Below are positions 18,181-19,029 of a DNA stretch of 41,018 nt, piece after piece. The stretch comes from a virus. Location of the stretch: the IMG/VR virus record IMGVR_UViG_3300020154_000131, positions 1-41,018 of that record; one strand, 5' to 3'. The notes under the pieces are model-generated. The model ran no database searches and was not told where the DNA came from. It was given only the letters and a program-made list of their open reading frames with translations. Made by a program: the position numbers and the translations under genes. Position 1 is the first letter of the stretch. Every line of letters starts with the position of its first letter.

Positions 18181-19029
18181 ATGACAATTTTAATAGACAG
18201 ACAGACAGACAGACAGACAGACAGACAGACAGACAGACAGACAGACAACCATTGTCATGCCTGCGGCCAATACATAGCGCAAGCAGTACACCGACTGGAC
18301 GGACCCGACGGTCGTTTCGTGCTGTATAACAATGACTTTCGCGATATCGCTACCGATATCCAGCCCGGCAGCGTGGACGCCGTTATTGCCGATCCGCCCT
18401 ATGGCTCTGGCGGCTTTACCGTTAAAGAGATGCTGAAATCGTCGAAAACCAAATACGTCAGCTCTAATGCCAGTTATCAGAAAACATTGCCGGATATCGA
18501 CGGCGAATCGCTGCACCCGATGGCTTGGCGGCAGCTGATGACCGATGCCTGCAATCTGGCCAAAAAAGTATTGACCGACGGCGGCGTGCTGGTGCTGTTC
18601 ATCGACTGGCGCAATATGGCGGCGCTGCAATCGGTTATGCACGAAACAGGGTTTACTGTGCGCGGTACGGCCGTCTGGGACAAAGGCCGGGCGACAAGGC
18701 CCATGAAGAATGGCTTCCGCAATCAGGCCGAGTATCTGCTGTGGGGCACCAAGGGCAAAACGGCCAGCCGTGAACAGCCGGTCTATTTGCCTGGCGTGCT
18801 GACGCATACGACTATGACCAATGGCAAACTGCACATCACGCAAAAGCCCGACTCTCTGATGGACGAGATCATCGCGATCTGCCCGCCAGGCGGCACGGTG
18901 CTGGATATGTTCATGGGCTCGGGCGGCACCGGCGTCGCGGCCTTGAAAAGCGGCCGGCGGTTCATTGGCGCCGAATCCGTCAACGCTTATTTTGATACGG
19001 CATTAAGCCGATGTCAGCACGCACTCTAA
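18181..19029 (+). CDS. DNA adenine/cytosine-N4 methyltransferase, putatively phase-variable
   Basis: A 282-residue amino-methyltransferase with the catalytic DPPY at residues 71-74 (VIADPPYGSGG) and the SAM-binding FMGSGGTG at 244-251 near the C-terminus. That order marks the beta class. It also has the family stretches GVLVLFIDWRNMAALQ and LHITQKPDSLMDEII. Residues about 6-22 (DRQT repeated) come from 13 AGAC repeats directly after the start codon. Gain or loss of a unit shifts the frame, so expression should switch on and off. In this sequence ATG 18181 is in frame (ON). A second ATG at 18165 is in a different frame. A CxxC-like CHACG follows the repeat. The gene lies between portal and MuF and is slightly more AT-rich than both, so it is an inserted moron. 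Target site unknown. Confidence 0.92.
   Translation: MTILIDRQTDRQTDRQTDRQTDNHCHACGQYIAQAVHRLDGPDGRFVLYNNDFRDIATDIQPGSVDAVIADPPYGSGGFTVKEMLKSSKTKYVSSNASYQKTLPDIDGESLHPMAWRQLMTDACNLAKKVLTDGGVLVLFIDWRNMAALQSVMHETGFTVRGTAVWDKGRATRPMKNGFRNQAEYLLWGTKGKTASREQPVYLPGVLTHTTMTNGKLHITQKPDSLMDEIIAICPPGGTVLDMFMGSGGTGVAALKSGRRFIGAESVNAYFDTALSRCQHAL
18195..18246 (+). repeat. Simple-sequence repeat (AGAC)x13 in a methyltransferase gene
   Basis: Thirteen uninterrupted AGAC units (52 bp) start 14 nt after the A of the ATG at 18181. A 4-bp unit is not a multiple of three, so each gain or loss of one unit changes the frame. Tetranucleotide tracts of this kind switch genes such as mod in Haemophilus by slipped-strand mispairing. 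The tract has no imperfect unit, as expected for an actively slipping repeat. Confidence 0.97.

Follow-up and report, generated by a model that had tools for sequence, protein, structure and literature searches.

The window, i.e. the whole stretch of DNA that was analysed (41,018 bases, from IMG/VR), holds a Mu-like prophage, and in its late head operon lies a gene for an orphan DNA methyltransferase (MTase) with a tract of AGAC repeats shortly after its start codon. The features are listed below, n being the number of AGAC units.

659..676, + strand: left-end copy of TGTGCCAAATATCGCGCA, close to the prophage's left end
2629-4671: transposase (phrog profile match)
4697-5449: MuB-like gene (phrog profile match)
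16551..18140, + strand: portal gene of the Mu type, adjoining the MTase on its 5' side in the late operon (Portal_Mu, PF06074, E=1.6e-99)
18165..18167, + strand: ATG1, opens the enzyme frame at n=12, 15 and so on (no Shine-Dalgarno, -0.1)
18181..18183, + strand: ATG2, opens the enzyme frame at n=13 and also at 10, 16 and so on (weak Shine-Dalgarno pairing, -3.3 kcal/mol)
18181..19029, + strand: orphan beta-class MTase reading frame, 282 aa (PF01555, phrog_67)
18195..18247, + strand: (AGAC)13 + A tract, encoding (RQTD)n (Tandem Repeats Finder)
18250..18267, + strand: HCHACG (Cys-x-x-Cys) motif directly 3' of the tract, identical in five aligned homologues
18391..18414, + strand: catalytic motif IV, DPPYGSGG, residues 71-78 (translation; invariant across the five-sequence alignment)
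18910..18933, + strand: SAM-binding motif I, FMGSGGTG, residues 244-251 (translation and five-sequence alignment)
19033..20298, + strand: MuF-type head protein, downstream neighbour (Phage_Mu_F, PF04233, E=2.9e-15)
39327..39366, + strand: two right-end copies of TGTGCCAAATATCGCGCA (starts 39327 and 39349), with host-like DNA beyond

The methyltransferase gene and its prophage

A DDE transposase, a MuB protein and the Mu portal, MuF and Gp27 proteins (phrog_310, E=9.6e-168; phrog_296; PF06074; PF04233; PF11985) identify the element as a Mu-like transposable phage, and a terminase is also encoded in the window (Pfam). The TGTGCCAAATATCGCGCA copy at the left end is likely a transposase site. The host-like DNA beyond the right-end copies contains a tRNA-like segment, which is repeated across many genomes of the Methylobacter marinus family, and an integrase gene that is 80% identical to one genome of that family. 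From these host-like flanks, the host of the prophage is therefore probably a Methylobacter-type methanotroph. The MuF-type head protein additionally carries a C-terminal PBECR2 nuclease-like domain (PF18810, E=4e-17).

The MTase reading frame matched PF01555 with E=2.6e-30 (106.5 bits against a cut-off of 26.7) and phrog_67 with E=1.3e-52. Motif IV precedes motif I (DPPY, then FxGxGxG), as in beta-class MTases, which is also how the original prediction, made from the letters of this stretch, had classified the gene. The closest solved structures were 5hek/5hfj (DpnA by PDB name) and CcrM 6pbd, together with M.MboIIA. Because these best solved relatives, like most of the profile relatives, are adenine enzymes, the target base is likely adenine. 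A structure model built from the five-sequence alignment was of poor quality (mean pLDDT 55.6) and was rejected as a basis for a fold search. Neither a res partner nor a type III MTase was found at the locus: the neighbours are portal and MuF, no restriction gene adjoins and the best PADLOC models were of type II. The form of the reading frame that was listed first opens upstream at 18061, within the portal gene; it is plausible that the true start is at 18181 instead.

The gene lies between the portal stop at 18140 and the MuF start at 19033, a site that had been predicted to be usually free of genes. Indeed, this junction is empty in four other loci (L021, where MuF starts immediately after the portal stop, L022, L024 and L025). 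In a related phage, L020, a different reading frame of about 200 aa fills it (7578-8250), which suggests that accessory genes tend to insert here. In the case of L010 (L010/L130), the prophage of the isolate Methylobacter marinus A45, the head genes come from other families and the MTase is still found between the portal and a MuF-like gene. In L074, a more distant homologue at a contig end, the MTase lies 3' of the last tail gene. In a remnant prophage of an M. marinus family genome, the tail gene runs directly into a related MTase that is broken and lacks the tract (L134, 1204-2168).

A further position was found in two homologues that lack the tract (L011 and L012, 66% identity). In both, the MTase shares an overlap with a gene for Com (PF10122, with E=4.9e-15 and 3.1e-15) and is then followed by repeats resembling the right-end repeats of the window, so that these relatives apparently occupy the position of Mu's mom at the right end. 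The window MTase is located mid-genome and not at the right end, where com-mom lies in Mu. By profile search, no Com was found in the window, nor in the records of L009, L010 and L074; those of L009 and L074 may be incomplete. Since Com accompanies these tract-free relatives and none of the records with a tract yielded it, slippage of the repeat may have taken over from Com in the control of translation. As to the order of events, the ancestor would have been a modification gene at the mom position under Com; from it, a lineage would have arisen that relies on a slippery tract for translation and has shifted to the head operon. The tie to mom, which had been drawn as a related problem, is closer than first claimed, as tract-free relatives adjoin Com, apparently at the right end.

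Tract length and reading frames among homologues

The tract comprises 13.25 perfect AGAC units (53 nt) and begins 14 nt downstream from the first base of the ATG at 18181, just as had been read from the sequence; Tandem Repeats Finder reported AGAC x 13.2 with 100% match, no indels and a score of 106. It is the top tetranucleotide array of the window. The sole array with a higher score is a degenerate 69-bp tandem repeat in the long tail gene (36972-37153, 2.6 copies, 76% match). A perfect tetranucleotide array of 53 nt in 41 kb cannot have arisen by chance.

AGAC units read (RQTD)n in all three frames and are free of stops. What matters is whether a start codon before it is in the frame of the enzyme. 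At n=13 this start is ATG2, and ATG1 lies in the -1 frame. At n=11, 14, 17 and so on, no start codon precedes the tract in the enzyme frame, and the gene is closed. With two ATGs in different frames, two of the three residues of n mod 3 are consequently open and one is closed. The expectation that every one-unit change would switch the gene ON or OFF thus holds for a gain to n=14, and not for a loss to n=12, which is open through ATG1. Altogether, the locus presents the form of a phase-variable simple sequence repeat, i.e. a perfect in-frame repeat whose unit is not a multiple of 3.

Unit counts in relatives had been named in advance as a check, and they vary between the four tract-bearing loci: 13 in the window, 7 in L010/L130, 9 in L074 and about 41 in L009 (IMG/VR 3300020154), where 17 units are followed by one variant unit TACA and 23 further units, a count that is approximate as metagenome assemblies may miscount long tracts. 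The only other record with 13 units (L013/L018/L080) was dropped as a second observation, being 100% identical to the window with the same first base and hence not independent. L009 and L010 carry the same gene at 91-95% identity, in flanks that are 88-95% identical to the window; a value of 88.7% was also obtained for the L010 MTase, and the L009 flanks are 90-94% identical, yet the tract length of L009 differs by about 28 units. Because such similar sequences carry 7, 13 and about 41 units, it can be concluded from the comparison that the tract is evolving far faster than its surroundings. Homologues without a tract are more divergent (L011 and L012 as given above, and L131 with 63% identity). 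Among 237 host-family genomes, only three contained at least six AGAC units; the Methylobacter marinus copy lies in the MTase gene, and the reading frames around the other two were not methylase-like.

The layout of two out-of-frame ATGs was found in all four tract-bearing loci. The frame is open through ATG2 in the window, L009 and L010 and through ATG1 in L074; in L010, both starts share one Shine-Dalgarno sequence (-5.1). All four alleles are therefore open and none is closed, an unremarkable outcome with a probability of 0.2 by chance if two frames of three are open. Ahead of HCHACG, the N-terminal tail shows no conservation in the five-sequence alignment. After the tract, differences to the window fall on the third codon position in 7 of 10 cases for L009 and in 8 of 10 for L010, and the codon differences between close relatives are mostly synonymous. 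This argues that the region after the tract (HCHACGQY... up to the catalytic motifs) is translated and under coding constraint. Since this stretch is conserved and its differences concentrate on third positions, translation would normally run through the tract.

AGAC tracts in other viral genes

A scan of IMG/VR yielded 102 stretches with (AGAC)8, compared to 11 with (AGTC)8 and 25 with (CAAT)8. That tetranucleotide tracts are generally common in viral contigs was considered as an explanation and is countered by these control units (11 and 25 against 102). Of the 37 control tracts, not one is located in a homologue of the genes with AGAC tracts. The downstream parts of 69 tract-associated reading frames matched PAPS_reduct in 30 cases, Methylase_S in 5 and DNA_methylase (C5) in 3, and the upstream halves contained more C5 methylases.

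The frame across the tract could be resolved in 52 cases and was kept in 22 and broken in 30, with kept/broken counts of 13/22 for the PAPS-like group, 8/5 for C5 and 1/3 for HsdS; these counts rest on the longest reading frame that is open downstream of each tract, mostly in metagenome assemblies, so that individual cases could be in error, and not every locus is an independent one. The PAPS-like group, the largest, has close to one in three kept, the share to be expected from a tract length that wanders through all three frames.

Several types of genes can be distinguished among these contigs. The PAPS-reductase-like gene occurs with tracts of 8-28 units in many viral contigs (L029-L127; e.g. 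L042:1920-3476, L078:8196-9518 and L114:3761-5134), and one such gene showed a weak match to SspD and BrxP profiles. In HsdS genes (type I specificity) of phage contigs, internal tracts join the parts of the specificity domains (L057, L079, L116, L129 and L045). C5 cytosine methylase genes with internal tracts were seen in the viral contigs L083, L128, L061 and L112. A reverse transcriptase gene (RVT_1) carries 24 units in frame (L062:2176-3204).

Taken together, (AGAC)n could be a recurrent switch cassette carried by phages, acquired repeatedly by unrelated phages in genes for DNA marking and phage-host conflict (N6-methylases, C5-methylases, HsdS and PAPS-reductase-like), where it would randomise viral epigenetic marks within a burst; in Methylobacter Mu-like phages it would have replaced the Com-controlled translation of the mom-position gene. 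This broad proposal may equally prove right or wrong.

A probable phage-borne contingency locus

We consider it probable that the MTase gene is a phage-borne contingency locus, i.e. a late-expressed orphan MTase of the adenine type that is made only when the AGAC count brings one of the two starts into frame. At the level of sequence, the evidence consists of the tract, its frames, the dual ATG, the variation between relatives, the coding constraint after the tract, the absence of Com from the window and the occupation of a site that is normally empty. Phase variation of the MTase, the core of the original prediction, is well supported by the perfect repeat, by unit counts that differ between loci and by AGAC tracts that keep or break the frame in other phage genes.

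In this mechanism, slippage during phage or prophage replication would alter the number of units. Protein would then be made at two residues of n mod 3, its N-terminus differing slightly between them and its amount perhaps as well, and none would be made at the third. Given the place of the gene among the late head genes, and with a promoter scan that showed nothing above chance, expression is probably late and lytic, which would suit a mark put on progeny DNA ahead of packaging, as with mom. The presumed benefit is a mixed progeny of methylated and unmethylated genomes, to be set against hosts with restriction enzymes that may either leave a methyl mark alone or target it.

An unlikely alternative is that tract length tunes expression, setting translation efficiency or the choice of N-terminus, so that active enzyme is nearly always made from ATG1, ATG2 or an internal GTG at 18319. 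Two of three frames are open, and the Shine-Dalgarno strengths differ between the starts of the window and the shared one of L010. The GTG lies upstream of the catalytic motifs, and a truncated enzyme could be made from it whatever the frame, a point that also runs contrary to the contingency locus. Against tuning, one frame is left without any start before the tract, and the internal start would lose HCHACG. As the HCHACG stretch is conserved and coding-constrained, the GTG is unlikely to be the true start.

Neutral expansion, in which an unstable microsatellite sits in a dispensable N-terminal tail and frame-breaking alleles are losses of function with no role in switching, appears quite improbable. 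The tract does lie in the non-conserved tail, so its length could drift neutrally; it is missing in L011, L012 and L131, and a closed MTase allele was not among the four. This account is countered by the finding of tract and out-of-frame ATGs together in four loci, including one with a different head module (L010) and one at a different genome position (L074), and by the recurrence of AGAC tracts in DNA-modification genes of unrelated phages. Moreover, a neutral slippery tract should be lost or broken more often, and the gene downstream of it is under purifying selection.

That the switching enzyme chiefly alters host gene expression in the lysogen is very unlikely: phage MTases can do so, as reviewed for PamA in Staphylococcus aureus (PMC13076061), but this gene is embedded among the late head genes, where the promoter scan gave nothing above chance, and should be silent in a lysogen. 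The late head operon of Mu is silent in the lysogen. The predicted switching role in lysogens found no support.

Returning to the contingency locus, its closest working analogue is neuO of the E. coli K1 prophage CUS-3 (PMC13001214), which is likewise phage-borne and has 5' coding tandem repeats (AAGACTC heptanucleotides) whose number determines whether full-length product is made. Unlike the late-head-operon MTase with its two alternative starts, neuO encodes a capsule O-acetyltransferase acting on the surface of the lysogen. Type III mod phasevarions (e.g. Moraxella ModM, PMC6902483) share the tetranucleotide tract within a MTase reading frame, but they belong to the host and in most cases come with a res partner, whereas the present MTase is a phage-encoded orphan. 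Com-Mom of Mu (PMC6483171) is similarly a DNA-modification system of a transposable phage, to which the Com overlap of L011 and L012, apparently at the right end, adds a positional likeness; in contrast, Mom is not a methyltransferase, and the window has its gene at the portal-MuF junction without Com. The orphan MTase bpm of Bordetella phage BPP-1 belongs to the same protein family (41% identity), and no repeat switch was described for it in the literature searched. One paper reportedly treats non-specific methylases of Mu-like prophages. A repeat-switched methylase carried by a phage was not found in the literature searched, which covered few subscription papers. Switching by repeat slippage has so far been described mostly in bacteria: phase-variable methylases of bacterial pathogens are well studied, and on the phage side neuO is one known case.

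If true, a virus that turns a DNA mark on and off at random would be hedging its bets at the level of each packaged genome. A burst would contain marked and unmarked particles, some of which escape enzymes that cut unmarked DNA and others those that cut marked DNA. The isolate Methylobacter marinus A45, with its 7-unit allele, makes this idea testable in culture. With AGAC tracts present in modification genes of many phages, in open and closed alleles, the matter becomes a general question rather than a curiosity.
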